Shown here piece by piece: positions 44,263 through 60,912 of a stretch of 64,000 nucleotides of DNA (positions are counted from its first letter, which is position 1; the number at the start of each line of letters is the position of its first letter). The position numbers and the translations under genes are program-made. The DNA is taken from positions 1,116,001 to 1,180,000 of the forward strand of contig NZ_CAJHAF010000001.1 in assembly GCF_904846315.1 (NCBI RefSeq), written 5' to 3'. Source of the DNA: Psychrobacter jeotgali (GTDB lineage: Bacteria > Pseudomonadota > Gammaproteobacteria > Pseudomonadales > Moraxellaceae). The notes beneath the pieces are model-generated. The model saw nothing but the letters and a program-made list of their open reading frames with translations, was not told the DNA's origin and did not search any database.

Positions 44263-44879
44263 CTTTATTAGTCCTTATAAATAATCATCCCCGTTTAATA
44301 GCAGGGTATTAGTAATAATATAACCAGATTATAGTCTACTCAATAACTTCCTTGATTTATTTAAGTAGTTAATTCTTGCTGAATGGTTTAGATAGGCTGC
44401 GAAGGCGATAGACAATTAACAAAGATAGACAACTAATAATATAACCATTGCCTTACTAACCGTAAACCACAAACTATCCAAAATCTGTCTAGCAAGCTAT
44501 AAGCATCTATTATAGGCGCTTACGCTCTTAATGTTTATAGCTGTGAAGAAATGACAACACAACAAGTATTTCTAAGATAAATAGCGATTAGTTAAAATAT
44601 AAATATATTACTATTAGCTACTAGCACTTTGGTGCTAGTAGCTAATATTTAGTCTAAACTTATTTGGAGTAATAAAGGTAATGAATGTTGGATAATAAAA
44701 GTAGTTCCCGATTCCATTCAGGCATTAATCCTAGCCTTCTGTCACTAAAAGCTTACTATGAGTAATATAATGTTAGATTTTATTAAGGTTTTTGTTTATA
44801 TTCTTTATAAGTAGTATTTTTTTTATTGTGAGTAAGATCACTGCTTATTTGCAACATGCAGGACATAGGAAGTAGCACT
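44263..44879. promoter_or_regulatory. 617-base divergent region between aceE and the surface-protein island
   Basis: No gene. It should contain the aceE promoter on the minus strand and the promoter of the first DUF11-type gene on the plus strand. Features seen are the palindrome at 44612-44647 and a segment at about 44700-44775 that resembles the leader of the second paralogue (GTCACT at 44741-44746, ATGTTA at 44770-44775; the second gene has the same two words 24 instead of 23 bases apart). Confidence 0.5.
44612..44647. repeat. Perfect 16-bp palindromic hairpin
   Basis: TATTAGCTACTAGCAC at 44612-44627 is exactly complementary to 44632-44647, with loop TTTG. There is no T run on either side, so it is a poor terminator. 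It lies midway between the divergent aceE and surface-protein genes. Could be a transposition scar or a regulatory structure. Confidence 0.85.
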
Positions 44880-47800
44880 ATGAGCAAAACCAAAGATGGT
44901 AAGCGTCTGAATTCAATTGATAATTTTGTAAAAAATATTATAAATCTCATCATACTGCTATTGATTAGCAGCTCATCTTTTGCCTTAGTGGCGAATGATG
45001 GTCCAGATACTTTCTGTCCTGCAGGAGCCATACAAGGCAGTTTAAACAATGCCAGTTATAGCACGCTAATGACGAGCTATAATAACAATGATTTTAGATC
45101 GGTAGTTAGCACCCCTTCTAATACCATTCCTTTACAGATCAAGATGAGCAAGCAGGAGCTGCCTAATAGCAACTCTAATACCACGAATAGTTTTGCGGTT
45201 AATAGCCAAAATAGTAACTACGCTATTAATATTAATAAGCGTTTTGCTAACAATGATACTGCCGCTACCACTATCACCCTTGAGTTTCGTAATAGTGATA
45301 CCTTACAACCTTTATACCTTAGTAAGGTCGCTCTAAGTGCCTTTGATATCGACGCCTCTACTCAAGGAAGCAGTAACTTTGATGACTATGTCAAATTTAC
45401 TGGTGTTGCTGAAAGCAAGTCTATTACTGGGAAAATCCAAACTATAACAGGTTCAAACGTAGTAGCTTTTGATAAAGGGCTGAGAACCAATAATATTAGT
45501 GATAGCGGCTGCTCTGCCAAAGGCTTGCAAGGAAGATGTCAAGGCTCCGTAGTATTTGAGGAGCCCGTTAAGTCCGTGACCCTTACTTACAGAACCACTG
45601 AGCGTATCAAGTCATCTGCAACCACTAATCAAGAGATTGACTTTCGGTTAGACAGTTACTGCTATCTACCGCCTTCCTATGAGATTACTAAAGATGATGG
45701 CCTAGCAATAGTTGCTACTGGCGATACCACTAATTATGTCATTAAAGTAACCAATACTGGAGGATTTCCACTAACTAATATTACCTTAAAGGATCCGGCA
45801 GTTTCAGGTCTCAATAAGCTCATTGGTATCAGCTGTGATAATAATGACCCCACCAATATTTGTAGTAGCGTGCCAAGTGTTAACCAGCTAGAGCGTGCCG
45901 CAGGATTTAATATCCCATCTTTACCAGTTGGCAAGAGTTATAGTATTAGAGTGCCAACACGGGTCACGGCAGCTGAAGGCTCTACTATTATTAATACGGC
46001 TAACATTAATACTGCAAACTTAGATCCTAAAAGTGCGAGTGATAGCAATGAAGTAACCTCTATATTTGGTGGTGGATCGAGCAGCGCACCAGCAACTTGT
46101 CCGAGCGGACATCAAATGTACTACCTTGGCGAAAGTCCACCTGCTTACTCTCCTATACAAACACAAAATCTAGGCTGGACTAGGAACTCCAGCAATACTA
46201 ATAGCTTTAATTTTGGTAGCATCAAGCTAACCTTAGCGTTTTCTGATATATCATATTTACGTAACGGTTATCCAAGCTACAGTAGTTATTCTGGCGCAAC
46301 AAACAATGCCATTAATATGTATCACGAAAGCCCATACGCACCTGTTAATCACCGATTAACCGCCACTATGAATAAGCCCGTATCAAAGTTCGGCTTTCTG
46401 GTTCAAGACTTAGATACCAATCGAAATAGCTATGTAGAGTCCCTTTCATTTGATACGAGCAATAATAAAGCGACGGGTGGCGTATTCTCATTTCCAAGTA
46501 CGTTTAATGATTATTTAGAGCTTTCTAATAACAACCAAACTATAGCAGGCAAAAGATGGGAGAACTGTAGTACTTCTAATCCATGTGATTTCAATGTAGA
46601 TTGGGGCTATCAATCAGCGGGCACCCCTTTTGTAGTCACTCATGGCAATATCTACAATACCTCTAGTACACCAGGGCAATTAATGGGCTACTCTGACTTT
46701 TACTTCTGTCTTGCGCCGCCAAAACTGGTAGTCAAAAAAGAGCTCGAAGGCAATCGTATTAATGATACTAACGCCAAGCGTGATCAGTTTGAGATAACCG
46801 TCGTAGGCGGTTCAATAGCTGCTAATAGCTTTACAACTACTGGAACCGGCGCGACTATCAATAACGGTCGTAGTACAGTTTTAGAGTTAAAAGAAAACAC
46901 CACTTATACGATTACTGAACGAGTAATAAATGGTAATGCCAACAGCTATAGTGCCAGTTATACTTGTACCAACACTACTACTGATAGCACCACTATCGTA
47001 CCTAGTGGCGCAATGAGCTATGATGCAGCGGCAGGCACACGCTCATTCAATTTGTCTAACGTCAACTTCGCCGATGAAATCACTTGTACCATTACCAATA
47101 GCGCCAATTATGTATTCTCAGGTATTGTATTCAACGATAATGGCGGTATCGTCGCAGACGATGAGAAAAAACGAGATATCTCCGCCACTTTTACCGCTAA
47201 CAGCAGCTATTTTAATGGGCTATTCGATAGTGGATCTGAATCGGGGATTTCTAGTAGTAATTTAAGCATACGTCTAACTGACTGCAGTGGAACAGATATA
47301 GCTACTAGCTCGCCAAACCCACAAACGGTAGCAGATGATTCAGTAAACAACGGCAGATACCGCTTTACCGTAGCGCCTAGTGCTTTAGTCAATAAAACCC
47401 AAGTGTGCTTGATTGAGGCTGAACCCAGCGCGTGGGAATACCCCATAGATACTACCACCAATGTTCGAGAGATTACACTTGTAGCCGATGTCTATAATTA
47501 CAAAACAGAAATAAGCAGTTCAGGGACGATAATACGTAATTTAGACTTTGGGGAAGTAAAGTCTGATAATGCGGCTTTAGTGCTTATCAAATCACAATAC
47601 GTTCACGACTGTGATAGTAATCTTGATTATCAGAGTATTCCTGACAGTGAAAACCCAACGATAGGCTTTAGTATAGAGCCTATTAGTGATATTAGCCCAA
47701 ATAACTGTATCGCTTACCGAGTTCAAGCTTATAACCGCGCTCATTTAATTCTAGAACAGATTCAAATTAGCGATATATTGCAAAACACGCCGGTTGCCTC

Positions 47801-47999
47801 TGTATTTAAACAACCTGCACCTTTATTTCTACCTACATCGGTAGCTAGTCCTACCGTTGTTTATGATACTAATGGGGAGATCCAGTCCAACCAGTTTAGC
47901 CTAGCTGCCGTTGCAGCAACAGCTAGCACACCCACTTCGGCGACGCTATACTTCAATACGAAATATGGTACTACCGTTACTAGTCTAGTAGTTCCTTAA
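44880..47999 (+). CDS. Large exported DUF11/Cna-B-like surface protein, paralogue 1
   Basis: 1039 residues from ATG 44880, preferred because AGGAAG lies seven bases upstream; an ATG 24 bases earlier has none. Signal peptide about 1-38 (IINLIILLLISSSSFA). Then a domain opening CPAGAIQGS, a DUF11-like domain at about 265-400 (YVIKVTNTGGFPLTNITLKDP), a second Cys-led domain opening CPSGHQMYYLGE (405), and a region from 615 (VVKKELEGNRINDT). An SdrD-B/Cna-B-like domain follows at about 743 (FSGIVFNDNGG), and a final DUF11-like part at about 899. No barrel or membrane anchor. Probably secreted or attached to the surface; function unknown. Confidence 0.85.
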   Translation: MSKTKDGKRLNSIDNFVKNIINLIILLLISSSSFALVANDGPDTFCPAGAIQGSLNNASYSTLMTSYNNNDFRSVVSTPSNTIPLQIKMSKQELPNSNSNTTNSFAVNSQNSNYAININKRFANNDTAATTITLEFRNSDTLQPLYLSKVALSAFDIDASTQGSSNFDDYVKFTGVAESKSITGKIQTITGSNVVAFDKGLRTNNISDSGCSAKGLQGRCQGSVVFEEPVKSVTLTYRTTERIKSSATTNQEIDFRLDSYCYLPPSYEITKDDGLAIVATGDTTNYVIKVTNTGGFPLTNITLKDPAVSGLNKLIGISCDNNDPTNICSSVPSVNQLERAAGFNIPSLPVGKSYSIRVPTRVTAAEGSTIINTANINTANLDPKSASDSNEVTSIFGGGSSSAPATCPSGHQMYYLGESPPAYSPIQTQNLGWTRNSSNTNSFNFGSIKLTLAFSDISYLRNGYPSYSSYSGATNNAINMYHESPYAPVNHRLTATMNKPVSKFGFLVQDLDTNRNSYVESLSFDTSNNKATGGVFSFPSTFNDYLELSNNNQTIAGKRWENCSTSNPCDFNVDWGYQSAGTPFVVTHGNIYNTSSTPGQLMGYSDFYFCLAPPKLVVKKELEGNRINDTNAKRDQFEITVVGGSIAANSFTTTGTGATINNGRSTVLELKENTTYTITERVINGNANSYSASYTCTNTTTDSTTIVPSGAMSYDAAAGTRSFNLSNVNFADEITCTITNSANYVFSGIVFNDNGGIVADDEKKRDISATFTANSSYFNGLFDSGSESGISSSNLSIRLTDCSGTDIATSSPNPQTVADDSVNNGRYRFTVAPSALVNKTQVCLIEAEPSAWEYPIDTTTNVREITLVADVYNYKTEISSSGTIIRNLDFGEVKSDNAALVLIKSQYVHDCDSNLDYQSIPDSENPTIGFSIEPISDISPNNCIAYRVQAYNRAHLILEQIQISDILQNTPVASVFKQPAPLFLPTSVASPTVVYDTNGEIQSNQFSLAAVAATASTPTSATLYFNTKYGTTVTSLVVP

Positions 48000-48058
48000 T
48001 TATTATTAAATCTATGATATAACTAAAGTTATTTCAAGATTAAAGTTTCAATAATTAG

Positions 48059-48086
48059 AAGCCTTAATATAAGGATATTAAGGCTT
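48059..48086 (+). terminator. Hairpin after surface-protein paralogue 1
   Basis: Perfect 12-bp stem AAGCCTTAATAT/ATATTAAGGCTT with a 4-nt loop, 60 bases after the stop. Only a loose T-rich tail follows (TATCTAGTC), so termination may be partial. Confidence 0.65.
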
Positions 48087-48225
48087 TATCTAGTCATTCT
48101 TCTTTTACTATGAATATAGTCTAAATATGATTGGACTTATTAATATCATCCAGCCCAAAACTTTAGTCCCCGTCTATCATACCAATAATGCCTCTTGTCA
48201 CTTTAAACTATTCACTCACTCATAT

Positions 48226-48250
48226 TATGTTAATATCGAATGTTAACATA
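48226..48250. promoter_or_regulatory. Inverted repeat upstream of paralogue 2, possible operator
   Basis: TATGTTAA (48226-48233) and TTAACATA (48243-48250) form a perfect 8-bp dyad with 9 bases between, about 180 bases before the gene. The left arm overlaps the ATGTTA word that is shared with the leader of paralogue 1. The size suits a dimeric regulator. Confidence 0.45.
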
Positions 48251-48430
48251 GCGTCAGGCTATAGATTATTTAGAGCCGTTAACTAATTTAGAGCCACGAA
48301 CTATTAGTAACCGCGACTTTGTAGCACTACCAAGCTGTAAATTTTACAAGATTTAAAGCTTTCCTATAACCCCAGTATCTGATTGGTGTAGAGCTTCGTA
48401 ATATTAGTAGCGCTTTATTAGGAATATGTC

Positions 48431-51400
48431 ATGCACCCAGCATTGTATCTGTTGAATTCAATAAGCTCACATCGAGCCCGTCATTTTATGTATAAACTAT
48501 TCATCTCGATGAGTTTACTTATCGCTTTATTGATGAGTAATTCCTCATTTGCTATTGCGCCAAATCCTGGTGCAATATGCCCTGCTGGCACTCAAGGTAG
48601 TTTTACCGAAGCTGATTATAGTACTTTATTCTCTAGTTATATTCGCAAAAACTACGCGGATATTGCAGGCTCTGGCAGCATTCCTCTACAAATGCAGATG
48701 AGTGCTATAGATACTGACCGTAAAACCAAAGTAAGGGTTGAGCAAAGAGATAGCGGCGGCTATTCATTTATTCGTGTTAGGAGAGAAGCCGACGATGACC
48801 CTACTTCTACCACCAATGTAACCCTTGATTTTCGCAAAAGTGATACTACTGAACCTCTTTTTCTTAATAATGTTGCGCTCAGTGTATTTGAAATTGATAG
48901 ATATCTAGATAAAGGTGAAGGTTGGGATGATTTGGTAACCGTGACGGGTAAGACCAAAGCAGGCACTACCATCAATGGCATTATTCAATCTATTGCAGGC
49001 TCTACAGTCACTGGTTCTAATGGCTCACTTTATCAGTCTGGCAATGCCAACCGAATTCGGTGTAGAGGCACGCTTGCAACAGACTGCCAAGGCTCTATCG
49101 CCTTTGATCAACCTGTAGACTCGGTAACGATTTCATTTGGCAATACGACCAGAATTACCAAAGGTGATGAGGAACAAGAAATAGAATTTAGAGTAGACAG
49201 CTACTGTTACGCGCCGCTGTCTTATGAAATCTCTAAAGACGATGGTATTACCAGTATCGGTACTACCAACCTTACCAATTATACGATTAAGGTAACCAAT
49301 ACTGGCGGTGCGGTCTTAAATAACGTGACTCTAAAAGATCCTATAGTCGCAGGTCTCAGTAAGCAATCTAATATCACTTGTGACTCGGCAGATAGCACCA
49401 ATAGTTGTAATACAGTGCCGACAGTAGCGCAGCTAGAAGGTGCTGGATTTAGTGTTCCGCCTATACCGATTGGTCAGAGCTACAGTATTAACATCCCTAC
49501 GAGAGTAACTGCTGAACAAGGTTCAACCGTAACCAATACCGCCACCATCAGCCATCCAACTCTAGCATCCAAGAGCGCCAGTGATCGTAATACAGTAACC
49601 GCTATATTTGATGGCGGCACCACTGACACGCCAGCCATTTGTCCAAGCGGACATAAAATGTACTATATTGGCGCTAACCCACCAGCTTTTAGTCCTATTC
49701 AGAGCCAAAGCCTGAGCAGTTGGGTTGGCGGCAACACTTCAAAGACTTTTACATTCACTGAGGCTTCAGGTAACAAAAGCTTTAATATTAGCTTCTCTAA
49801 TCTTTTAGATTTAAACACTTCAACCTCTGGGGGCAGACCACCTTTTTATAGTTCACTAAAAGATGTTACTACCTCAGCGATTAATTTATTGCATCACTCT
49901 TATGGAGTGAGAACCAATCACGTTTTGGACGTTAGCGTAAACCGTCCTGTGAGTAAGGTCGGCTATAAAATACAAGATATAGACTCAACTATTATCTCCG
50001 GTCAAGTACCGTACATAGAACAAGTAGATGTCTCTAGTAGCAATGGTCAGCTAACCTTTAATGATATCTTCCATACTATCAATGCTAATAGAGATAAAGT
50101 CACGGCTATTAGAGGTCGAAACTGTGATACTAATGAATGTACTATCGATGCCACTTGGGGCTATAATCCTGCAAACACCCCTCTTAACTTAAAGCACAAC
50201 AATACTTTTACTGAAAGAAATAGCTATCATGCCGTAGGCTATTCTGACTTTTACTTTTGTCTAGCACCGCCAAAACTAATAGTTAAAAAAGAGCTAGAAG
50301 GCAATCGTATCAATGATACTGATAGCAAGCGCGATCAGTTTGAGGTCAAAGTCACTGGTGGATCAATAGCGAGCAATAGTTTTACCACTACGGGCACTGC
50401 TGCCACTGTAAATAATGCTAGTAGTCGTCTCTTGAGCTTGACGGAGAATACCACTTATACCATTACTGAACGGGTAATGAATGGCTCGACGCTTGGTGAT
50501 ATTGCTAACTATAAAGCGACTTATATCTGTACCAACAATAGTACAGGTAGCACCACTGTCATGCCCACTGCTGATATGACTTACGACGCGGTGGCTAAGA
50601 CTCGTTCGTTTACCTTATCAGGGGCATCCTATGGCGATGAAATCATCTGTACCATTACTAACACCCCGGTAAGCTATACTTTTTCAGGCATTGTGTTTAA
50701 TGATAATGGTGGCATCACAGCTGCTGAAGAAACCAAACGAGACATCTCTACTACCTTTATCGGCAACAAGGATTACTTTAACGGTATCTTTGATAGCGCT
50801 ACTGAATCAGGTATCTCTAATAGTAATTTGAGCATCAGCCTCACAGACTGTAATGGTAACAACATCACCAATACCACAGCGCAAACAGTCTCTTCTGAAG
50901 GCAGATATCGATTTGTAGTACCGGTAAGCGCTTTATTAGGTAAAACCGAAGTCTGCTTGGTTGAGAATGAGCCCAGCTCATGGCTGTATAAGGTTGACAC
51001 CACTCCTGATAAGCGTAAAGTCACTCTAATGCCCAACGTTTATGATTACAAGACTGAGAAAAGTGCGGGAGGCGAAATGCTCCGTAATTTAGACTTTGGT
51101 GAGGTCAAAGAGAACAACTCAGCTTTAGTATTGGTGAAATCTCAATACGTTCATCAGTGTGATAGCGCCTTAGACTATCAAGCTATCCCTGAGGGCGAGA
51201 ATCCAACTTTGGGCTTCAGTATAAATACGATCGAAGATCTTGCTCCAAACCAGTGTATTGCTTATCGGATTCAAGCCTATAACCGTGGACATATAGGTTT
51301 AGAGAAAATTCAAATCACTGACCAGCTACAAAGTACGCCTGTCATTTCTGTGTTTGAATTACCGGCACCTTTATTTCTTCCTACTTCGATAGCGAGTCCT

Positions 51401-51547
51401 ACCGTTGCTTATGGCACCAATGGTGAAATTACGTCCAATAAATTTAACTTAGCGGCTACTCCATCATCTGCTACTCAGCCAAATATGGCGACACTCTATT
51501 TTAATACTAAATACGGAAACACCGTTTCTAATCCAGCGGCACCTTAA
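48431..51547 (+). CDS. Large exported DUF11/Cna-B-like surface protein, paralogue 2
   Basis: 1038 residues with AGGAA six bases before ATG 48431. Signal peptide within the first 41 residues (LLIALLMSNSSFA). Domain order is the same as in the preceding gene: CPAGTQGS head, DUF11-like domain at about 263-398, CPSGHKMYYIGA at 402, VKKELEGNRINDT at 613, FSGIVFNDNGG at 750 and ALVLVKSQYVH at 897. Many stretches are identical between the two proteins, so this is a tandem gene duplication. Lacks an obvious anchor; Cys pairs in the heads could form disulfides. Function unknown. Confidence 0.85.
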   Translation: MHPALYLLNSISSHRARHFMYKLFISMSLLIALLMSNSSFAIAPNPGAICPAGTQGSFTEADYSTLFSSYIRKNYADIAGSGSIPLQMQMSAIDTDRKTKVRVEQRDSGGYSFIRVRREADDDPTSTTNVTLDFRKSDTTEPLFLNNVALSVFEIDRYLDKGEGWDDLVTVTGKTKAGTTINGIIQSIAGSTVTGSNGSLYQSGNANRIRCRGTLATDCQGSIAFDQPVDSVTISFGNTTRITKGDEEQEIEFRVDSYCYAPLSYEISKDDGITSIGTTNLTNYTIKVTNTGGAVLNNVTLKDPIVAGLSKQSNITCDSADSTNSCNTVPTVAQLEGAGFSVPPIPIGQSYSINIPTRVTAEQGSTVTNTATISHPTLASKSASDRNTVTAIFDGGTTDTPAICPSGHKMYYIGANPPAFSPIQSQSLSSWVGGNTSKTFTFTEASGNKSFNISFSNLLDLNTSTSGGRPPFYSSLKDVTTSAINLLHHSYGVRTNHVLDVSVNRPVSKVGYKIQDIDSTIISGQVPYIEQVDVSSSNGQLTFNDIFHTINANRDKVTAIRGRNCDTNECTIDATWGYNPANTPLNLKHNNTFTERNSYHAVGYSDFYFCLAPPKLIVKKELEGNRINDTDSKRDQFEVKVTGGSIASNSFTTTGTAATVNNASSRLLSLTENTTYTITERVMNGSTLGDIANYKATYICTNNSTGSTTVMPTADMTYDAVAKTRSFTLSGASYGDEIICTITNTPVSYTFSGIVFNDNGGITAAEETKRDISTTFIGNKDYFNGIFDSATESGISNSNLSISLTDCNGNNITNTTAQTVSSEGRYRFVVPVSALLGKTEVCLVENEPSSWLYKVDTTPDKRKVTLMPNVYDYKTEKSAGGEMLRNLDFGEVKENNSALVLVKSQYVHQCDSALDYQAIPEGENPTLGFSINTIEDLAPNQCIAYRIQAYNRGHIGLEKIQITDQLQSTPVISVFELPAPLFLPTSIASPTVAYGTNGEITSNKFNLAATPSSATQPNMATLYFNTKYGNTVSNPAAP

Positions 51548-51651
51548 CAGGCTGCCGTTTCTACACCTCCACAAAAGTATTTATGACTGTATTCTGCAAG
51601 TTATAAATCCCATTTAAAACAACTACCTACTGACTCCTTTCTTATCAATTT

Positions 51652-51689
51652 CCCTCATCACAAACAGAGGTCTTTGTTTGTGATGAGGG
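51652..51689 (+). other. Long stem-loop without T tail
   Basis: In the 331-base gap after paralogue 2, which has no gene. CCCTCATCACAAACA (51652-51666) pairs perfectly with 51675-51689 over 15 bp, loop of 8. No T run follows on the plus strand (TCATTACC), so it might be a processing or attenuation structure rather than a classical terminator. Confidence 0.7.
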
Positions 51690-51878
51690 TCATTACCACT
51701 GACACCCTTCAAATTGCCATTTGTCGCTTTTATGATGAATGTTTGTAGCTACTTTGTAATAATGCCAACATAGAAAAGATATCTACTCTTTATCAGTAAC
51801 AGTTAATTATATCGAACATCAGTTGAATAACTGAAGACCAAGGTTACTGATAGCCATGGTTTTAGCAAGGAAAGTTAT

Positions 51879-52343
51879 ATGAAATGTTTTAACTACTTAC
51901 GCAGTGTTTTATTAGCTACTTTGGCTTCTAGCTTGTTGTTGAGCGCCGCTCACGCCAATGAAGCTCTAGATATGCAACTAAGTGCTAATAAAGTCATGAC
52001 CAATGCTGAAGGCAAAGTTGTCTACTCGCCTATCAGCACGGCGCCCAAGGGCACGGTCGTACAATATAAAGCCACTTATACCAATACCATCGACAAAGAC
52101 ATTAAAGACTTAGTAGTGGTACTGCCTATTCCTGTCAACATGACCTTTAATGGGGTAGCACTCCCGACTAGTGCGCAAGCCAGCGTTGATGGCAAGAACT
52201 ACGCTGATATGCCGCTTATGCGCCGTGTCGATGGCAAGTTGGTCAAAATCCCATTATCTGAATATCGTAGCCTGCGCTGGAATATCAAATTATTACCAGC
52301 CAAGAAATCTGCCGCTGTAGCACTGAATACTATTGTCAATTAA
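51879..52343 (+). CDS. Small exported DUF11-like protein, 154 aa
   Basis: Signal peptide about 1-27 (LLATLASSLLLSAAHA), then a single immunoglobulin-like domain of about 125 residues with YKATYTNTIDKDIKDLVVVLPIP, the core pattern of DUF11 repeats. AAGGAAAG lies before the ATG. It is followed 44 bases later by the 682-residue protein gene, so they form an operon. A free-standing DUF11-like module could be a subunit or chaperone-like partner for the larger proteins; this is inference only. Confidence 0.75.
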   Translation: MKCFNYLRSVLLATLASSLLLSAAHANEALDMQLSANKVMTNAEGKVVYSPISTAPKGTVVQYKATYTNTIDKDIKDLVVVLPIPVNMTFNGVALPTSAQASVDGKNYADMPLMRRVDGKLVKIPLSEYRSLRWNIKLLPAKKSAAVALNTIVN

Positions 52344-52387
52344 TCCCATTGTTAGAGCATTTCATTTACCCTTAGGAGATTTACCGT

Positions 52388-54436
52388 ATGAAACCAAACC
52401 CTTTTAAATATTCAGTGCTGACCGTTGGTATTGTTACTGCCATGGGCGTTGCCAGTATCGCTATGGCCACTACTAGCCTCACCTACGATCAGGAGAATGC
52501 CTTTTCTGTTACTAACAAAGCTGAAGCTACCTATATGGTTGAGGGTAATACTACTGAACAAAAAGCTGAATCAAATGAAGTCAAAATTAATGTTACTGAA
52601 ACAGGTGCATTTAGCTTAATTGCTACTTCAGCTGACGACAAACCTAATGATGATCTTAATAAGAACCTTACTATTAACCCGCAAATTGATCAGAAGGTCG
52701 ACTTTAAACATACCTTAAGCAACGCTGGTAACGTCGCTGATAGCTATACTATTAGTATTCAGAATGGCGAAGGTGATGACTTTAACTATAGTATCGCCAA
52801 CAGCGTTATTAAATATCAAAAGGTAAGCGCTGATGGGAACAATATTGGCGACGTTGTGACGGTTGCTAACGGTGGAACTATAACACTAGGCGCTGGTGAG
52901 TCTGCTGGAATTACAGTGACAGCGGCGGCAGAAACAGCTCGTGTTGTTGGAAAGAACGGCATACTTACTGTTACTGCTATTAGTACCTTCTTAAATGGTA
53001 AGGGTAAAACAGCTACCATTACTAATACTGACAATGCTATTACCACTACGCCTATTTATGCCATTAACAAGTCGGCAACGACTAACCTTGGCACTAAGAA
53101 TTTTGACCTTAAAAATGACAATGCTTATGTCGACTATACCATTACCGTCACTAACCAAGGTAATGAAGATGGTACCGCAGTTACTATCGAAGATAAGCTA
53201 CCTAATGGTTTGGTTGCCATTCAAAGTGGTGAGGATAACTATGTAGCGCCTACTACCACTGGTGGCACTAGTAGCGTTACTCCTAGCATCTCAAGCGATG
53301 GCAGAACCGTTACTGTAACTGGTCAAAATATCTTACAGAACCAAACCATTACGGTTACTTTCCGTGCTAAGAAAGCAGAAAATGCTACTGTTGATAGTAC
53401 CTTTAATAACTATGCAGTGGTAAGAGACGACACTAATGGCGATGGTAGCTTTGATCTTGTAGATAGCTCAGGCGATAAAAAAGATGACTCAGTTATTGAA
53501 AATAACTATGAAGACCCAGCTAATCCTAGTGTCGGTACAGATACTGATAACGGTACGATAAGACCTACACAGCAAAATCGCGAATTAAACATTAGTAAAG
53601 GCGCTGATAAAGAAGTAGCACTACAAAGTACTAATAACGTTTATACCTATACTATAACCAACGCTGGTAAAGACATTACCGAGGCTGCTAAAGCTGGGGA
53701 TGTGTTGTTTACTATCACTCCTACTACTGATATCAGTCAAATTAATGTTACTCAAGTATTCGTGGATGCCAACAATAATGGCGTATTTGATTCGGGTGAA
53801 AAAGTATTGACTGCTAATCAAAGCGGGCAATATGATCTTAATAATGCTGCTCCAGCTGGCTTAGCATCTGCTGTTGCTGGCTCTCCTGCTGGTTCAGTCA
53901 CTATTGGTGTAGTAGTCGCTACCAATGGTTCGGGCAGTAAATTGCAAGGTAAGAATGATATCGGTAAGTTTGAAGAGATTACTGTTGCCATCTTACCAAA
54001 GACTGAAGTAGATGGTACCCCAGCACCTACCAAAAACGTATCTACTACCTCAACTACGACTATGCAAGGTATTGACTTGACCAAGTACCAAGCTGTCGCT
54101 AGCTGTGGTACTGCACCAACAGATATTCCTGCTAATGATTGGGTCACAACTGATCTTACTGGTACAGCGGGTGCTTGTGCTTTCTATAAATTAGAGGCTA
54201 TTAACACCTTTACTAATATCAAAATCAATAACATTGTCTTGAAGGATAGTTTGGTTGGCAAACTTACCTATCAAAGTGACTTTGCTTCTGATACCAGTAT
54301 TAACTCAGCAGCAGCCACATCAAACATTTCTGGTAATGTCATTACCGGCACCTTTGCCAGCTTGGCAGGAAAGGAGATCGGTAACGTCTACTTCTCTGCA
54401 AAGATATCTCAAGCAGGTAATAACTCTAATCCATAA
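52388..54436 (+). CDS. Exported DUF11-repeat protein, 682 aa
   Basis: Signal peptide about 1-28 (VGIVTAMGVASIAMA). The mature protein is a chain of DUF11-like or related beta-sandwich domains. The first is at about 30-215 (FKHTLSNAGNVADSYTI), then about 224-335 (VDYTITVTNQGNEDGTAVTIEDKLP), one at about 405-560 with an Asp/Asn-rich loop DANNNGVFDSGE that could bind calcium, and a last one to the end. Very acidic, Thr/Asn-rich, few cysteines. GGAG lies ten bases before the ATG. Ends without an anchor. Likely a secreted or surface-attached partner of the neighbouring proteins. Confidence 0.82.
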   Translation: MKPNPFKYSVLTVGIVTAMGVASIAMATTSLTYDQENAFSVTNKAEATYMVEGNTTEQKAESNEVKINVTETGAFSLIATSADDKPNDDLNKNLTINPQIDQKVDFKHTLSNAGNVADSYTISIQNGEGDDFNYSIANSVIKYQKVSADGNNIGDVVTVANGGTITLGAGESAGITVTAAAETARVVGKNGILTVTAISTFLNGKGKTATITNTDNAITTTPIYAINKSATTNLGTKNFDLKNDNAYVDYTITVTNQGNEDGTAVTIEDKLPNGLVAIQSGEDNYVAPTTTGGTSSVTPSISSDGRTVTVTGQNILQNQTITVTFRAKKAENATVDSTFNNYAVVRDDTNGDGSFDLVDSSGDKKDDSVIENNYEDPANPSVGTDTDNGTIRPTQQNRELNISKGADKEVALQSTNNVYTYTITNAGKDITEAAKAGDVLFTITPTTDISQINVTQVFVDANNNGVFDSGEKVLTANQSGQYDLNNAAPAGLASAVAGSPAGSVTIGVVVATNGSGSKLQGKNDIGKFEEITVAILPKTEVDGTPAPTKNVSTTSTTTMQGIDLTKYQAVASCGTAPTDIPANDWVTTDLTGTAGACAFYKLEAINTFTNIKINNIVLKDSLVGKLTYQSDFASDTSINSAAATSNISGNVITGTFASLAGKEIGNVYFSAKISQAGNNSNP

Positions 54437-54464
54437 GTAATTAACCTTCATTTTAATAATTCAA

Positions 54465-54497
54465 AGGAGCTTTCTTAACCCGATTAAGGAAGCTCCT
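54465..54497 (+). terminator. Hairpin between the 682-aa and 1781-aa genes
   Basis: Fourteen-pair stem (54465-54478 with 54484-54497, one T-G pair) and 5-nt loop, 28 bases after a stop. The following sequence is pyrimidine-rich but lacks a T run, so it may reduce rather than stop transcription into the 1781-aa gene. Confidence 0.55.
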
Positions 54498-54556
54498 CTC
54501 CACCATCAACCAAGTCTCTCTAATTATATTTTCTTTCATAAGTAGGATTAACATAT

Positions 54557-57500
54557 ATGCATTACACTTTGTCATCGTCTAGTAAACTACGCTGCCGTAC
54601 TGGCGTGCTTACTACACTGGCGACTTCGATGCTACTTATGCAAGCAAATATCGCCTATGCTGATACCGGTAAAGGCGTTACGACTATTAATAATATTGCC
54701 AGCGTTGATTACACGGTGGTTGCTGGTGAATCACAGTCCGGCACCTCTAATCAAGTTAGCGTCAGAGCTTTGACCTTGCCGCAGTACGATATTACCCTCA
54801 CGCAGCCACCGCTAAACATTATTGATCTGGGTAGTGGTACTCAATGGATTAATATTCTGTCTAACACTGGCACCTATGACGCAACCGTATTATTAAGCTA
54901 CTCTTTGACAGAAGGCTTCGCCCCTTTTTCTAACTCATTTAGCAGAACAATGCCTGCTGCTATCTCAACTTATGACTCTCCAGTAAGCCTTTCTAACTTT
55001 GCGGTCTATCAAGATGTCAATGAGAATGGCCGTATTGATGATGGTGATATTCGCTTTAGTAATCCACAGCAAATAAAAATTGCTCAGGGTGAAAGCATTC
55101 AACTGATTGTAGAATCATTGTCTGATATCAACCATCGTGAAGATGAGCAAGTGGATATACACCTCAATGCGTTAGTTCTTGAAGATAACTCGGTGACAAG
55201 TCTGGCAATGAACAGCTTGATACCTATTACTCCTCGTATCAATTTTAAAAATACAGCTTATGCAGATCCTCTAAAAGCTTCACAAGTGGGCAAAGAGATT
55301 TATGTTGAAGCCAGTTTTGCACAATGTAATGCTGATCCTAAGAAGCCTGATCAAGCTTGGGTTACCATAACTTCGGCCTTGACGGGGGACAAGTATTCGC
55401 TAAAAGCGGTAGAGACTGGCGATAATACGGGTAAATATCGTCTGTCAGCGCCTACACAAAATAATGCCAATCCTATTGATGATCAGATTATCCAAACGCT
55501 GCAAGGTGATACCCTTAAAGCCAGCTTGGATGCTTGTATTGATCCTGAAAACTCTACTTTGATTCCTATCAACCAAAATATTAGCAGTAATATCGCTATC
55601 GTTGACGAGCTTCCAAGCCTACAAGTCCTTAAAGAAGGCGATGTCAAAACTGCTGAGCTTGGCGACTATGTCAACTACACTATTCAAGTCACTAATAATG
55701 GTGCCGCTACCGTTTATGATGTCGAGCTAAAAGATGCCCTGCCTCGTGGTTTTGATTATGTCAAAGGCAGCGTTCGTTTTGACAAAGATAACCTTGATAT
55801 CAATCAAACCCAAACGACTGAATTTAAAACTGAGGGTAAATACCAAGTTTTAAGCTTAGGCGAGATGGCGGCTGGTACAACTAAAAAGATTCGCTATCGG
55901 GCTCTCATTGGCTCTTCTTCACTAGGCGGCGATGGTATCAACCGTGCGACGGCTTATGGCCGTGATGAAAATAGCAATCCACTAGCATCAATGGAAGCTC
56001 AGTGGGAGATCGAAGTTGACCGTGGCCTGATAAATACTGACGGCATTATCGTTGGTAAGGTCTACCACGATATCAACCGTGATGGCATCCAGCAAAAAGC
56101 GGACGGCGAGCTTGGCGTCGCAGGCGTACGTATTTATATGGAAAACGGTAACTTTGCCGTTACTGATCCTGAAGGTAAATATAACTTCTACGGGGTCAGC
56201 GCCAAGACTCATGTCCTAAAAGTCGACCGCACTACTCTGCCAAGAGAGACTGAATTAGTTACCCAAAGTAATCGTAACGCCGGCGATGCCGGTAGCCGCT
56301 TCGTTGACCTAAAGTACGGTGAGCTCCATCGTGCAGACTTTGGTTTGGTCGGCGGGATGGCGGATAGCACTGAGCGTCTTAATGAAGAGCTTATTAACCG
56401 CAGCAACAGCATTAGTGCTAAAAATGACAAGCTAGAGCAAGCAGTCAAAAGCAAGCTAGATTTAGAGCCTATCTATAATCGCAACTATGAAGACAACGTT
56501 GACGCTAGTGGCTGTAAATCTAACGATATCTTAGATCAAGGTATCAAATGTGATTCAGCCATCGTCAATGAGATGGCAAATCCTAGTGCTGAACGTATCG
56601 ATATGGCAGTCAATACGGTCACGCAGCCTAAAGCGAAACTGCTAGAAGAGTATCTCAAAGAAGTTCCTAATAATGATGTGGCTTTTATTAACTTGACTAA
56701 TGATCAGCAATTAGCGTCTTACAAGCAGCTGATTCAAGTACAAGCGCCGCTAGGAGCACAGTTTACCCTTTATGCTAATGGCAAAGCGGTATCAGAGCAG
56801 CAAATCGGTAAGACCGCTGAGCAAGAAAAGCAAAGCGTTATCGCTTTTGACTACTATGCCGTCGAACTCAAACGTGGACGCAACACTTTACGCGGCGTAG
56901 CCACCGATGTTAATGGCAAAGTCATATCTGAGCAAACCATCCAAGTGACCGCACCGGATAGTCTAAAAGCTATTAATTATCGTACTCAAGATGGTCTAGT
57001 AGAAGCTGACGGCGTTAGCGAATATCAGATCGTCATCAGTCTAAAGGATTCAGATAATCGTCCTTATGTGGCCTCAACTCCTATCACTATTGATACCAAT
57101 ATTGGCCGTATTAACCTAAAAGATAGCAGTAACAATCAAGCAGGTACTCAGGTCACGGTCAATGGCGGCGAGCTTTTAATCCCAGTTATTGCCCCAAGCG
57201 TACCGGGTAAAGGCGAGCTGGTTATTGATACGGGTAGTAGCAAGCAAGTCATTCCGCTGCAGTTCACTGCCAAGCTACGTCCACTTATCGCCGTAGGTAT
57301 CGTTGAGGGTGCTATATCCCTCAAGGACTTTGATGGCGGCAATATCACCGATGCTCAAGGCGCTTTTGAACAAGAGCTCCATGAGATCTCGGGCAACGAT
57401 GATTACTCAGCAACTGGCCGTGCTGCTATGTTCCTAAAAGGCAAAGTACGCGGTGATTATCTGCTTACTCTAGCCTATGATAGTGACAAAAAAGGCGAGC

Positions 57501-59902
57501 GCTTGTTCCGTGATATCGAGCCTGGCGAGTACTATCCTGTATACGGCGACTCATCTGCCAAAGGCTTCGATGCTCAGTCTACCAGCAAGCTTTATGTCCG
57601 CGTCGATAAAGGTCGCTCGTTTGCGATGTATGGCGATCTAAAAACTCAGATTGAGAACGATGAAGGTATCGAGCTTGGTCGTTACAATCGTACTTTGACC
57701 GGTGCCAAGGCGCAGTATGAAGACGAGAACACTCGTATTACCGCCTTTGCCGCAGAAACCAGCTCATCACAGCGCGTAAATGAGACTCGTGGTTTAGGTA
57801 TCTCAGGCCCTTATCCTTTAGCTGAGAACTTCGACGCCGTTCTTGAAAATTCAGAAACCGTTGAAGTGATAGTGCGTGATGCCAACAACCCGGGGCTTAT
57901 CATCAGCCGCGAGACCTTGATTCGCTTTGCTGATTATGAGATTGATCCTATTAGCCGCAGCTTATATCTAAAGTCGCCTATCGCTAGCCAAGACTTGGCG
58001 GGCAACCCCATCTATCTACGTGTTACGGTAGAAGTAGACGCGGGCGGCGAAAAGTACTGGGTCGGCGGCGTAGCAGTTAAGCAGCAGTTAAATGAAAAAG
58101 TTGCTGTTGGTGGTAGCTATGTCAATAGTGACGATCCTTTAAACAAAGAAGAGCTTGCTAGTGTTAATAGCGTGATCAAATTTAATGATAAGCTCAAGCT
58201 CGTAGCAGAATACGCTCGAAACAAAGCGGATAATCCAAACTATCAACCTAGCAACCAGATCAATGCTGAATTACTAACAGGCGAAAACGTTGAAGGCGAC
58301 GCCCTACGTATCGAGCTTGATTATGATGATAAAAAACGTACCCGTGCCAAAGCTTACTATAATGATGCGGACGCTGGCTTCGTTACTGGCGCATCCCCTT
58401 TAACCGCTGGACGTACTGAATCTGGCGTAGAAGTAGTTCATGCCTTAGAGAACAAAAAAACAGCTTTAAAATTAGAAGGCGTACGCACTAAAGACAACAT
58501 TACCAAAGCTAGCCGTCAAGGGGTAGAAGCTAGTGTTGAGCAGCGTTTAAGCAAGAATATCGTTGGTGAGGTCGGTGTACGTTACTATAAGCAAGATGCT
58601 ACGGCGGCCTCACGCAATATCCAAGCGGCAACCGATGTCGAAGATATCACCGATGATACAATATTTAATGATAGTATCGTCAATCAGTCGGCTCTTAGTA
58701 GTGTTAATGACGCTGATAAAGATATTGAGGGCACTACGGCACGTGCTCGTATTACTGCGCGCCTGCCCAAGCTTAATAACAGCTTAGTCTTTGCTGAATA
58801 CGAACAGGACATTAGTCATAGCGAGCGTAATGCCACCTCAATTGGCGGTGAAACTCCACTAGGTAGCCTCGGTCGCCTTTATGCTCGTCATGATTTAATC
58901 AATAGCTTATCAGGTAGCTATGGACTCGACGATACCGATGAGCGCCAGCGCACGGTTATCGGTTTTGACACCACTTATATGAAAGACGGTAAAGTCTATA
59001 GCGAATACCGCATGCGTGATGCCGTTAGTGCACGAGAAGCTGAAGCCGCTATTGGTCTTAAAAACAAATGGTATGTACAAGAAGGGCTGACCCTTAGTAC
59101 TTTATTCGAGCGTGTTGAGTCTCTTGAAGGTAAAGAAGACAATACCGCCACCGCTGCCGGTATCGGTGTCGAATATCTAGCGCAGGAAGACTATAAAATT
59201 TCAGGACGTCTAGAAAAACGTTGGGGCGAGACCAGTGATACGCTCCTTGCTAATGCAGGCGTAGCTTATCGTTATACCGACGACATTACCTTATTGGCAA
59301 AGGATATCTATTCACGGGTCGATTATCTCGACGGTCACCGTACCATCAACCGCTTACAGATCGGCGGTGCTTATCGTGATTACGATAGCAATCAGCTGGA
59401 TATGCTGGCCAAGCTAGAATACCGTCTAGATGACAATGCTACTGGTGATGATCGCTATCAAAAAGATACTTTGGTTTGGACTTGGAATGGTAACTACCAT
59501 CCTACTCGCGCCTTAACCCTATCGGGCCGCTATGCTGGTAAATATACCGAGTATGATGCAGATAATATTACTAGTGATAATACCGCGCACGCAGCCTATG
59601 TACGTGGTCTATATGATATCAGCGAGCGCTGGGATATAGGATTACAAGCAGGCTCTTACTGGAACGATAGAGCAGACGATTTATCTTACATGCTCGGTGC
59701 TGAGATTGGCTACAGCCCAATGACCAACCTATGGTTATCGCTTGGTTATAACTTTATGGGCTTTGAAGATGAAGATATTGCCTATGATGATACTACCCAA
59801 GAGGGCGCCTACTTTAGACTACGCTTTAAGTTTGATGAAGACTTATTTAAACGTAACGATCCTCGTAAGAACAAACGTATCACTAATAATGCTACATTAT
59901 AG
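54557..59902 (+). CDS. Giant composite surface protein: DUF11 and SdrD-B modules plus outer-membrane barrel, 1781 aa
   Basis: Signal peptide about 1-36. A DUF11-like start (40-345), a clear DUF11 domain (about 354-455, VNYTIQVTNNGAATVYDVELKDALP) and an SdrD-B-like domain (about 495-560, GKVYHDINRDGIQQ) follow. Next are an extended linker and an invasin/Ig-like domain near 811-900 (GVSEYQIVISLKDSDNRPY). From about 910 to the end there are some 870 residues of alternating beta-strand sequence with YYPVYGDSS at about 990, ending YFRLRFKFDEDLF plus a short basic tail, read as a large outer-membrane barrel. Probably anchors and displays the island's DUF11 modules. AGGAT lies seven bases before the ATG; a strong terminator follows. 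Confidence 0.85.
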   Translation: MHYTLSSSSKLRCRTGVLTTLATSMLLMQANIAYADTGKGVTTINNIASVDYTVVAGESQSGTSNQVSVRALTLPQYDITLTQPPLNIIDLGSGTQWINILSNTGTYDATVLLSYSLTEGFAPFSNSFSRTMPAAISTYDSPVSLSNFAVYQDVNENGRIDDGDIRFSNPQQIKIAQGESIQLIVESLSDINHREDEQVDIHLNALVLEDNSVTSLAMNSLIPITPRINFKNTAYADPLKASQVGKEIYVEASFAQCNADPKKPDQAWVTITSALTGDKYSLKAVETGDNTGKYRLSAPTQNNANPIDDQIIQTLQGDTLKASLDACIDPENSTLIPINQNISSNIAIVDELPSLQVLKEGDVKTAELGDYVNYTIQVTNNGAATVYDVELKDALPRGFDYVKGSVRFDKDNLDINQTQTTEFKTEGKYQVLSLGEMAAGTTKKIRYRALIGSSSLGGDGINRATAYGRDENSNPLASMEAQWEIEVDRGLINTDGIIVGKVYHDINRDGIQQKADGELGVAGVRIYMENGNFAVTDPEGKYNFYGVSAKTHVLKVDRTTLPRETELVTQSNRNAGDAGSRFVDLKYGELHRADFGLVGGMADSTERLNEELINRSNSISAKNDKLEQAVKSKLDLEPIYNRNYEDNVDASGCKSNDILDQGIKCDSAIVNEMANPSAERIDMAVNTVTQPKAKLLEEYLKEVPNNDVAFINLTNDQQLASYKQLIQVQAPLGAQFTLYANGKAVSEQQIGKTAEQEKQSVIAFDYYAVELKRGRNTLRGVATDVNGKVISEQTIQVTAPDSLKAINYRTQDGLVEADGVSEYQIVISLKDSDNRPYVASTPITIDTNIGRINLKDSSNNQAGTQVTVNGGELLIPVIAPSVPGKGELVIDTGSSKQVIPLQFTAKLRPLIAVGIVEGAISLKDFDGGNITDAQGAFEQELHEISGNDDYSATGRAAMFLKGKVRGDYLLTLAYDSDKKGERLFRDIEPGEYYPVYGDSSAKGFDAQSTSKLYVRVDKGRSFAMYGDLKTQIENDEGIELGRYNRTLTGAKAQYEDENTRITAFAAETSSSQRVNETRGLGISGPYPLAENFDAVLENSETVEVIVRDANNPGLIISRETLIRFADYEIDPISRSLYLKSPIASQDLAGNPIYLRVTVEVDAGGEKYWVGGVAVKQQLNEKVAVGGSYVNSDDPLNKEELASVNSVIKFNDKLKLVAEYARNKADNPNYQPSNQINAELLTGENVEGDALRIELDYDDKKRTRAKAYYNDADAGFVTGASPLTAGRTESGVEVVHALENKKTALKLEGVRTKDNITKASRQGVEASVEQRLSKNIVGEVGVRYYKQDATAASRNIQAATDVEDITDDTIFNDSIVNQSALSSVNDADKDIEGTTARARITARLPKLNNSLVFAEYEQDISHSERNATSIGGETPLGSLGRLYARHDLINSLSGSYGLDDTDERQRTVIGFDTTYMKDGKVYSEYRMRDAVSAREAEAAIGLKNKWYVQEGLTLSTLFERVESLEGKEDNTATAAGIGVEYLAQEDYKISGRLEKRWGETSDTLLANAGVAYRYTDDITLLAKDIYSRVDYLDGHRTINRLQIGGAYRDYDSNQLDMLAKLEYRLDDNATGDDRYQKDTLVWTWNGNYHPTRALTLSGRYAGKYTEYDADNITSDNTAHAAYVRGLYDISERWDIGLQAGSYWNDRADDLSYMLGAEIGYSPMTNLWLSLGYNFMGFEDEDIAYDDTTQEGAYFRLRFKFDEDLFKRNDPRKNKRITNNATL

Positions 59903-59930
59903 TGAACGTTTTTGAATATATGACATAAAT

Positions 59931-59964
59931 AAAAAGGGTATCAATAAATATTGGTACCCTTTTT
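59931..59964 (+). terminator. Strong terminator after the 1781-aa gene
   Basis: Stem AAAAAGGGTA/TACCCTTTTT, with further inner pairing CAATA/TATTG, and a T run on the plus strand, about 30 bases after the stop. It closes the 52.4-59.9 kb unit. Confidence 0.92.
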
Positions 59965-60087
59965 GCTTGTAATGAAGAGATTTAAGTTATCATTATGCTA
60001 TGATTATTATTTTTTATGTGCTGTTAGAATAAATCTATTCGATTGCGCTATTACCTATCTACCCTATAATTTTATGAGACCCACTTT

Positions 60088-60912
60088 ATGCTTCGCTTTG
60101 CAACTATGGCAACCCAAAAGAAATCTTATCGCCCGTTTACAGCTTCTACAGTTGCAGCCTTAATATCGTTAGCGCTAGGTACGCTCTCGTTAACCCTAGC
60201 ACCAGCCAGCCAAGCCAGTGCTGTTGACTCTGTCTCTGTTAAATCGATTAATATTGATTGCCATACTGCTAAGGCGATGCAAGCCTCAAACCCCACTTAT
60301 CAAAGCGCCCACCAGCGTACTATTAATTGTATGATGACTGAGCTAAATAGTTATCAGCAACAACAACGAAGCGCACGCCAGCGCTATTTCGCTTACAAAG
60401 CACAGGCATGGCTAAACTATGCTTATCATGAAGATAGTATTAACAGTCGTTCGATTGCTGGAAAACAAGCCTTTGAAGCTGCCGATACTATTCTACAAGC
60501 CCTAAAGAGTGGTACTGAAAACCGGCTCGATCTTACTACTGATATTCCTACTACCTCTGCTTTGATGCGGCCAGACCTATGGGCAACCCTCAGCGCCTTA
60601 AAAGATCGTCAAGGAATAGATCAGGCACCAAGAGAGCTGGCTTATAGTGAGATTGCCCTGATTTGGGCCGCAGCCAATCACTGTCAACAAGGATGGCGTC
60701 AGTCGAGTGCGCACTTTCGGATGGCAGACCGCTGGCTGCAGCAAGCTCGTGAAGCTTATGTCAACGCTCATAATTCTCGCGACAACGTTGCGCTTGAAGA
60801 GCTTATCAATCAATACTATAAGCACTATGCTCCTTTAGATCCTAGTGATGATGTTTGTCGAGGTCAGACACTCGCAAACAATATCTCGATAACAAAGAGC
60901 CAATCGTTATAA
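60088..60912 (+). CDS. Exported alpha-helical protein, 274 aa, unknown function
   Basis: Not recognised with confidence. A hydrophobic segment at about 20-42 (ALISLALGTLSLTLAPASQA) looks like a signal peptide after a basic start. The mature part is helical, with CHTAKAMQ and TINCMM giving a cysteine pair, then AYKAQAWLNYAYHEDS, a motif that I associate with periplasmic segments of some OmpA-family proteins, and a tail with HCQQGWRQ. The start is uncertain: ATG 60088 or ATG 60106. It sits alone between two strong terminators, beside the surface island but not in its operon. It could be a periplasmic helper. Confidence 0.6.
   Translation: MLRFATMATQKKSYRPFTASTVAALISLALGTLSLTLAPASQASAVDSVSVKSINIDCHTAKAMQASNPTYQSAHQRTINCMMTELNSYQQQQRSARQRYFAYKAQAWLNYAYHEDSINSRSIAGKQAFEAADTILQALKSGTENRLDLTTDIPTTSALMRPDLWATLSALKDRQGIDQAPRELAYSEIALIWAAANHCQQGWRQSSAHFRMADRWLQQAREAYVNAHNSRDNVALEELINQYYKHYAPLDPSDDVCRGQTLANNISITKSQSL

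Follow-up and report, generated by a model that had tools for sequence, protein, structure and literature searches.

Gene content of the locus

The window analysed here is a stretch of 64,000 nucleotides (nt) from Psychrobacter jeotgali (contig NZ_CAJHAF010000001.1, positions 1,116,001 to 1,180,000 of the forward strand). It contains six consecutive plus-strand genes, designated A to F, which occupy positions 44856-60912 and encode proteins of 1047, 1038, 154, 682, 1781 and 274 amino acids (aa), thereby confirming the gene series of an original prediction that was made from the sequence alone. The recurrence of content and order of this gene set across Pseudomonadota exceeds chance, and C and E very probably belong to one conserved gene system. 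With middling confidence we propose that the genes encode a multi-part outer-membrane display system, whose role would probably be fibre assembly.

Gene A (44856..47999) encodes a Cys-rich modular exported protein of 1047 aa with a DUF11 domain (aa 277-401), a SpaA_3 domain (aa 624-749) and a DUF11-like C-terminal domain, as identified from the open reading frame (ORF) with Pfam and hhalign; the predicted start at 44880 is a later in-frame ATG, and the ORF opens at 44856. Its paralogue B (48431..51547; 1038 aa; 52% identity) also contains SpaA_3 (ORF, Pfam). Gene C (51879..52343; 154 aa) codes for a single DUF11-like domain and is, on the basis of its family alignment and the locus counts reported below, the conserved partner of E, while D (52388..54436; 682 aa) is a multi-domain DUF11 protein that differs between strains. 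Gene E (54557..59902; 1781 aa) begins with a variable D-like module (aa 1-350), which is followed by a DUF11 domain (aa 355-473; 55619..55975), an SdrD_B domain (aa 501-566), a linker with an Ig-like part (aa 600-945) and a C-terminal barrel-like region (aa 946-1781; 57392..59899). The last gene, F (60088..60912), encodes an exported protein of 274 aa. A signal-like hydrophobic stretch, judged by eye, is present at all six N-termini, in agreement with the predicted export of the whole set, and the six proteins contain neither LPxTG nor lipobox motifs (pattern search) nor an autotransporter domain (Pfam), as had also been predicted.

Five of the proteins had been credited with DUF11-type modules, a count that stands with one reservation concerning C. 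DUF11 (PF01345) exceeds the Pfam cut-off of 24.6 bits in A, B, D and E, and the fifth member, C, is recognised by profile alignment only and lies below the Pfam cut-off. In profile comparisons, the C family pairs with the DUF11-like domains at the C-termini of the other proteins at hhalign probabilities of 76.5-97.6%, one C relative matches DUF11 below the cut-off (E-value 3e-4), and Trp134 is invariant in the family alignment. Neither C nor F has a Pfam match over the cut-off, and no DUF11-type module was seen in F. The SdrD_B match of E is slightly below its cut-off (28.1 vs 29.7 bits), and the Ig part of the protein yields a weak Invasin_D3 match (E-value 0.1, Pfam). D has an N-terminal module in common with E (hhalign 94%) and a C-terminal domain type in common with A and B; the Cys content amounts to 16 residues each in A and B and two in D.

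The DUF11 domain has been renamed CLIPPER, and the structure 9IFR was obtained from the protein B9T28_05395 of Acinetobacter silvestris, described as a 'putative fibrillar adhesin' (PMC12617251). The Lys, Asp and Asn residues of 9IFR, which constitute its isopeptide triad, align with Lys359, Asp393 and Asn462 of E, with residues 279, 313 and 380 or 385 of A, and with residues 228, 269 and 340 or 341 of D. By the same alignment, B is devoid of the Asn and C of the Lys and the Asp.

Conservation of the gene set

The order A/B-C-D-E-F between aceE and a tetR-family gene is the rule in the 41 named Psychrobacter loci, which include several assemblies of one species and are hence not independent. 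C was found in 39 of them, the other two being the short contig L031 and the locus L049 without A-D, and F in 40, with its absence from L060, a locus that has two E genes. C and D are repeated in tandem as a pair in four loci (L038, L041, L053, L058), and a second D without its own C is present in two others (L069, L070). Among the 41 Psychrobacter genomes in a sample of 149 Moraxellaceae, 33 harbor a full E gene, one (G096) a match of 38 codons and seven none, and C was detected at an E-value of <=1e-40 in 40. Further C paralogues of about 205 and 341 aa, beside which no D, E or A/B was found, are located at L181:9494-10111 (minus strand; on the source chromosome, outside the window), L186:10221-11246 and L188:9735-10760.

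C and E are also paired outside Psychrobacter. Fifteen further Moraxellaceae loci have the same layout (L072-L083, L085-L087); C is present in 13 of them, and the two misses (L073, L082) lie at contig ends. F was found in 11 of these loci, and two more (L083, L085) have an OmpA domain inside E. A six-frame search located C 5' of E on the same strand in all 20 chosen distant gammaproteobacterial loci, beside which D-like proteins are common. These 20 loci were hand-picked from the strong E matches of two samples (12 + 8), with other strong matches left out. Since 14 of these loci had contributed their C sequences to the model used (A3), the search was repeated with a Moraxellaceae-only model, which also detected C in 20/20 (E-values <=4.4e-11).

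Co-occurrence at the genome level leads to the same picture. C accompanies E in 29 of the 31 E-bearing genomes among 108 non-Psychrobacter Moraxellaceae (8.3 expected), in 21 of 25 among 273 gammaproteobacteria (2.2 expected) and in 26 of 33 among 298 Pseudomonadota (3.5 expected); the latter two samples thus contain 25 and 33 genomes with full-length E relatives, the one of the window excluded. C without E was observed in zero, three and six genomes of the family, class and phylum samples, respectively. The cut-offs were placed at gaps in the match lists, for E at 1e-30 (family outside Psychrobacter), 1e-100 (class) and 1e-240 (phylum) and for C at 1e-35, 1e-28 and 1e-20, respectively; the family cut-off for E drops two genomes of the A. 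silvestris type (G039 and G084; about 1e-15). The E model (A2) includes E from several of the sampled genomes, the family f231 dominates the phylum sample, and the co-occurrence p-values are overstated because the genomes are related and thus not independent. In the 26 genomes of the phylum sample with both genes, C and E are located within <=10 kb on the same contig in 18; in the other eight, the assembly is fragmented and the two genes fall on separate contigs.

The set is also found on plasmids. Plasmid p4 of Acinetobacter haemolyticus (CP085288.1; L194:7005-20512) carries C (156 aa, 142 bits), E (2008 aa) and an OmpA-family F, with D annotated in several pieces and a 978-aa DUF11 protein after F. 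An alphaproteobacterial example is a Pacificitalea plasmid (NZ_CP021408.1; L195:4096-14349) with relatives of C (176 aa, 82 bits), D (880 aa, 212 bits) and E (2032 aa, 586 bits) in the same order. An independent scattering of the genes across genomes, the outcome against which the original prediction was to be judged, was thus not seen: the order is kept in Psychrobacter, in other Moraxellaceae and in other Gammaproteobacteria, and C and E co-occur. That unconnected genes for surface proteins were clustered by chance or through promiscuous DUF11 domains would account for the occurrence of C alone and of E without C, but the conserved order and the co-occurrence across families make this explanation highly improbable.

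The flanking regions bear on the designation of the locus as an 'island'. Upstream of gene A, the minus strand carries what we take to be aceE and aceF, and downstream there is presumably an endonuclease-like gene beside the minus-strand tetR gene (names assigned by eye from the sequence). The tetR-family gene itself (61128..61817, minus strand; Pfam and locus comparison) adjoins F in most Psychrobacter loci and is a possible candidate for a regulator of the gene set. The same flanks are found throughout Psychrobacter, and the GC content in 2-kb bins is 0.376-0.469 over the gene set vs 0.378-0.462 in the rest of the window, thus documenting a resident locus of the genus; a horizontally acquired island was rejected on these grounds. 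The gaps between the successive genes from A to F amount to 431, 331, 44, 120 and 185 nt, and these sizes suggest that C-D-E could be one transcript, with A and B apart. Promoter-like sites were no commoner in our scan than in shuffled sequences (42 vs 43.9), and the scan for terminator-like sites was uninformative (17 vs 13.3). A terminator-like hairpin of 16 pairs with a T-rich tail is located just 5' of gene A (window 44612-44647).

The barrel-like region of E

The conserved stretch of E spans aa 353-1781, and the median identity within the protein is 45% for aa 1-350, its most variable part, and 85% for the barrel region. No Pfam or NCBIfam family exceeds its cut-off over this region, for which E itself provides a sub-threshold outer-membrane match only (DUF2490, 17.1 bits). 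In the distant relative L150, the corresponding region matches OMP_b-brl above the cut-off (41.0 vs 28.7 bits). A comparison of the E profile with the sequences of PDB chains (E-values up to 10) retrieved no outer-membrane barrel chain, and its matches were mainly beta-galactosidase and other Ig-like parts that correspond to the pre-barrel region. The long barrel predicted for the end of E therefore retains its standing as far as a large barrel is likely; its strand number is not established, as our counter fails to tell barrels from beta domains of other kinds. This home-made alternation counter, which depends on an author-chosen penalty, gave medians of 34-40 strands across 31 E homologues (single values 26-44). 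Applied to reference proteins at these settings, it returned 22-26 strands for LptD, 18-28 for two TonB receptors and 8-10 for OmpW, the known numbers being 26, 22 and 8, respectively. If the region of E is one barrel, its predicted size would exceed that of LptD.

A more distant barrel subfamily (L147-L150, L118-L121, L196) matches mainly from about aa 910-980 of E onward. One member (L148) is fused to OmpA, and another one, encoded on the betaproteobacterial plasmid L196, is annotated as 'OmpA family protein' and located behind a 2647-aa SdrD B-like protein. This subfamily perhaps represents a two-gene branch.

That E probably forms a large barrel in the outer membrane, with genes for exported partners next to it, would also suit an uptake channel, in which E would be a large importer of a polymer and the DUF11 proteins its surface binders. 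The six proteins have no TonB-receptor or SusD-like match, and we regard such a channel as improbable; the genes outside the set were seen as unannotated ORFs, and transport genes may recur among them.

OmpA domains and the orientation of E

OmpA domains, which bind peptidoglycan, provide a clue to the orientation of E. The domain (PF00691) was found by Pfam in none of the six window proteins. In the 20 distant gammaproteobacterial loci it is located inside E in 13 and on a separate downstream gene in four. Relatives of F in other genera have a C-terminal OmpA domain that the F proteins of Psychrobacter are devoid of; it is present on F in nine other Moraxellaceae loci (L074, L075, L077-L082, L087). 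Its location within E or in the adjoining gene in relatives, together with its binding to peptidoglycan, argues that the part of E that precedes the barrel most probably lies in the periplasm, at least in these relatives.

This orientation bears on the alternative that E is an autotransporter-like fibrillar adhesin, whose own barrel would pass the N-terminal DUF11/SdrD_B modules to the outside, with D and A/B as separately released surface or matrix proteins. The order of an N-terminal passenger and a C-terminal barrel is that of an autotransporter, and the high variability of aa 1-350 (45% vs 85% identity in the barrel) is a further point in its favour. Nevertheless, E has no autotransporter domain match, the OmpA domain that precedes the barrel within E itself in 13 of the 20 distant loci would place this stretch in the periplasm, and the pairing with C is left unexplained. 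An autotransporter-like E accordingly appears unlikely.

Turnover of D and A/B

The members of the gene set differ strongly in their conservation. The median identity to the window protein is 91% for AceE (22 loci), 75% for E (36), 72% for C, 55% for F, 44% for A/B and 32% for D (35 loci each). Of the 41 named Psychrobacter loci, 36 were scored, the omitted ones being the short contig L031, L033 with a contig that starts just before C, L060 with its two sets, and L062 and L071 with frame-broken E genes; L049 is without D, C and A/B, and the class counts hence refer to 35 loci. At 50% identity, D falls into nine and A/B into 12 classes. The clearest example is the locus L057, which is nearly identical with L040, L052 and L056 in E (99%), AceE (100%), C (99-100%) and F (96-100%), with values of 33% for D and 39-72% for A/B. 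In the 45 locus pairs with E more than 90% identical, D is below 50% in 22, A/B in 26 and C in none. The two paralogues of about 1040 aa listed in the original prediction, A and B, are indeed paralogues (52% identical), but they are a local feature: the A/B gene nearest C encodes 1047-1073 aa in four of 35 loci and 540-721 aa in the other 31.

Between A/B classes, the identity rises from 22% in the first 200 aa over 34% in the middle to 39% in the last 150 aa; a shuffled control, which was built from D termini, gave 22%. The terminal domains of A/B, D, C and distant D-like proteins align mutually (hhalign 65-99%), those of A/B and D at 98.8% with an E-value of 5e-17. By a simple alternation score, the last strand usually forms the C-terminus itself: such an ending was scored for 72 of the 102 exported proteins encoded near E on the same strand, vs 12 of 52 exported control ORFs and 34 of 185 when all control ORFs are counted. 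The cut-off of 0.75 was set by the authors, and C genes as well as some likely non-members (e.g. in L156 and L163) are among the 102. A final strand of this kind is inherent in DUF11-like folds; the ending hence indicates such a domain at the C-terminus and does not demonstrate a sorting signal.

This pattern bears on the possibility of a wholly periplasmic brace, in which the barrel and the DUF11 proteins tie the outer membrane to the peptidoglycan without display on the outside. The OmpA domains in E or F of relatives, the N-terminal module common to E and D (hhalign 94%) and the presence of N-termini of the Sec type only are all compatible with a brace. However, a tether needs no large barrel, and the turnover of D and A/B, which is far above that of E, C and the flanking genes, is together with the shuffle-like N-termini of A/B (22%) the pattern to be expected of exposed cargo. 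We consider a purely periplasmic function rather improbable.

A putative display machine with exchangeable cargo

In our best reading of these data, C, E and F would constitute a peptidoglycan-braced display machine and D and A/B its exchangeable surface cargo, because the conserved members (C, E and, less so, F) separate from the variable ones (D, A/B). The original notion of a barrel anchor with secreted partners is hence retained with respect to the conserved set and modified by this split, which points to a machine and its cargo. All parts would be exported via Sec, as their N-termini suggest, and E would be held in the outer membrane by its large C-terminal barrel. In relatives, E may be braced to the peptidoglycan via the OmpA domain inside E or on F; in Psychrobacter, with an F that lacks this domain, bracing would be accomplished by another contact or not at all. 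C may act in the periplasm as an adaptor for D and E or as their chaperone-like partner, a role that is suggested by its pairing and by its duplication with D in the four tandem loci. Domain content and turnover are consistent with D as a stalk, to which isopeptide bonds and a disulfide would lend stiffness, and with A/B as a disulfide-rich tip or adhesive part, and the terminal DUF11-like domain of D and A/B would contact the machine or the stalk. The weakest step is the putative function of the barrel as both exit and anchor for the cargo.

Several observations weigh against this interpretation. L049 retains E and F with A-D gone, and C is located intact beside aceE, with A/B, D and E absent, in the four of seven E-negative Psychrobacter genomes that were inspected (L182-L185), and in L091, the locus of G096, where 38 codons that match the end of E remain between C and F. 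F is also kept in two of these E-lacking loci (L184, L091), and C paralogues stand by themselves at other sites of these genomes, as they do in E-lacking genomes of another genus (g10). C thus depends on E less than E on C; a strict dependence of C on E was rejected, and the persistence of C, in two cases with F, in E-lacking Psychrobacter does not support an obligate joint complex. Conversely, E occurs without C in four of 25 (class) and seven of 33 (phylum) genomes, two of which are 100% complete (G545, G902). With respect to the bracing, the OmpA domain is present in none of the 41 named Psychrobacter loci, it is missing from three of the 20 distant loci, and L076 and L086 have neither F nor an OmpA domain inside E. 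The turnover of D could be the result of a differential loss of tandem copies instead of exchange, as both are possible given that tandem sets can hold different D classes. A conserved terminal tag on D was considered and rejected, since the last 135 aa are 30% identical between D classes and the middle 31%. The strand counter also gives about ten strands in the non-barrel part of E (aa 590-929) and, with matching settings, 10-12 in aa 300-600. Finally, no usher, type IX secretion system (T9SS) or autotransporter family match was obtained for the six proteins, and no tested precedent therefore carries over.

If the interpretation of a braced machine with exchangeable cargo is correct, a sizeable fraction of Pseudomonadota harbors a system for surface display that is so far undescribed, and the DUF11 (CLIPPER) proteins of Gram-negative bacteria gain a route across the outer membrane and an anchor therein. 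That D and A/B are swapped while the machine stays constant can be tested directly.

Comparison with known systems

The locus resembles in outline an outer-membrane display system of known kind, with core proteins that match no tested family beyond DUF11, SdrD_B and OmpA. The original statement that no named system has this set is consistent with our literature search, in which none was found among the listed matches of open-licence papers by title or start of the abstract. In three database records the proteins are annotated as 'DUF11 domain-containing', 'NEW3 domain-containing', 'OmpA family', 'SdrD B-like', 'carboxypeptidase-like regulatory' or hypothetical.

The idea of a very large barrel and of cargo with a common terminal beta domain is shared with type IX secretion, the SprA barrel of which comprises 36 strands, but the window proteins have no match to Por_secre_tail or to a T9SS family. 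Chaperone-usher pili are comparable in their barrel anchor, their small Ig-like exported partner and their stalk- and tip-like subunits. They differ in that no usher or PapD-like chaperone was matched by the six proteins (Pfam, E-values up to 1) and that the barrel-like region is located at the C-terminus here. Modules and an outer-membrane barrel in one chain are also typical of type Va autotransporters and of intimin/invasin; the type Va proteins are distinguished by PF03797, which is absent from E, and the present set by the OmpA domain before the barrel in relatives and by the constant C gene. With regard to two-partner secretion and Omp85 proteins, neither POTRA nor an Omp85/FhaC barrel is among the Pfam matches of E. 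The type XI secretion system (T11SS) likewise combines an outer-membrane protein with co-encoded exported cargo, and DUF11 is named among the domains that are combined with DUF1194 in its cargo loci (PMC12282271). A T11SS outer-membrane family or a TbpB-like barrel domain was not matched here (Pfam, E-values up to 1).

A close likeness is found in A. silvestris. A 2129-aa ORF in L090 holds the 9IFR sequence with zero differences at residues 708-828, and a 1237-aa ORF located 12 nt downstream matches residues 942-1744 of E at 26% identity (L090:3685-13800, minus strand, for the pair). The main text of PMC12617251, a structural survey from 2025, does not contain the words 'barrel', 'operon', 'translocat' or 'outer membrane'. 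Residue 748, given there as Asp, is Asn in L090 and residue 749 is Asp, so that the numbering in print is perhaps shifted by one. In A. silvestris, the barrel and the modules belong to separate proteins, and a search of 20 kb around them found no C as a gene of its own; the features in common are the DUF11 arrays, an OmpA-like domain and the distant homologue of the E barrel, which in A. silvestris is encoded next door. As a tentative and rather doubtful extension, the gene set might represent a distinct route of Pseudomonadota for export across, and display on, the outer membrane, in which a very large peptidoglycan-braced barrel, perhaps of the size of SprA, would let through DUF11 cargo identified by its terminal Ig-like domain, with C as a dedicated cargo adaptor, and the 'fibrillar adhesin' of A. 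silvestris with its adjoining barrel would then be a two-gene branch of this route.

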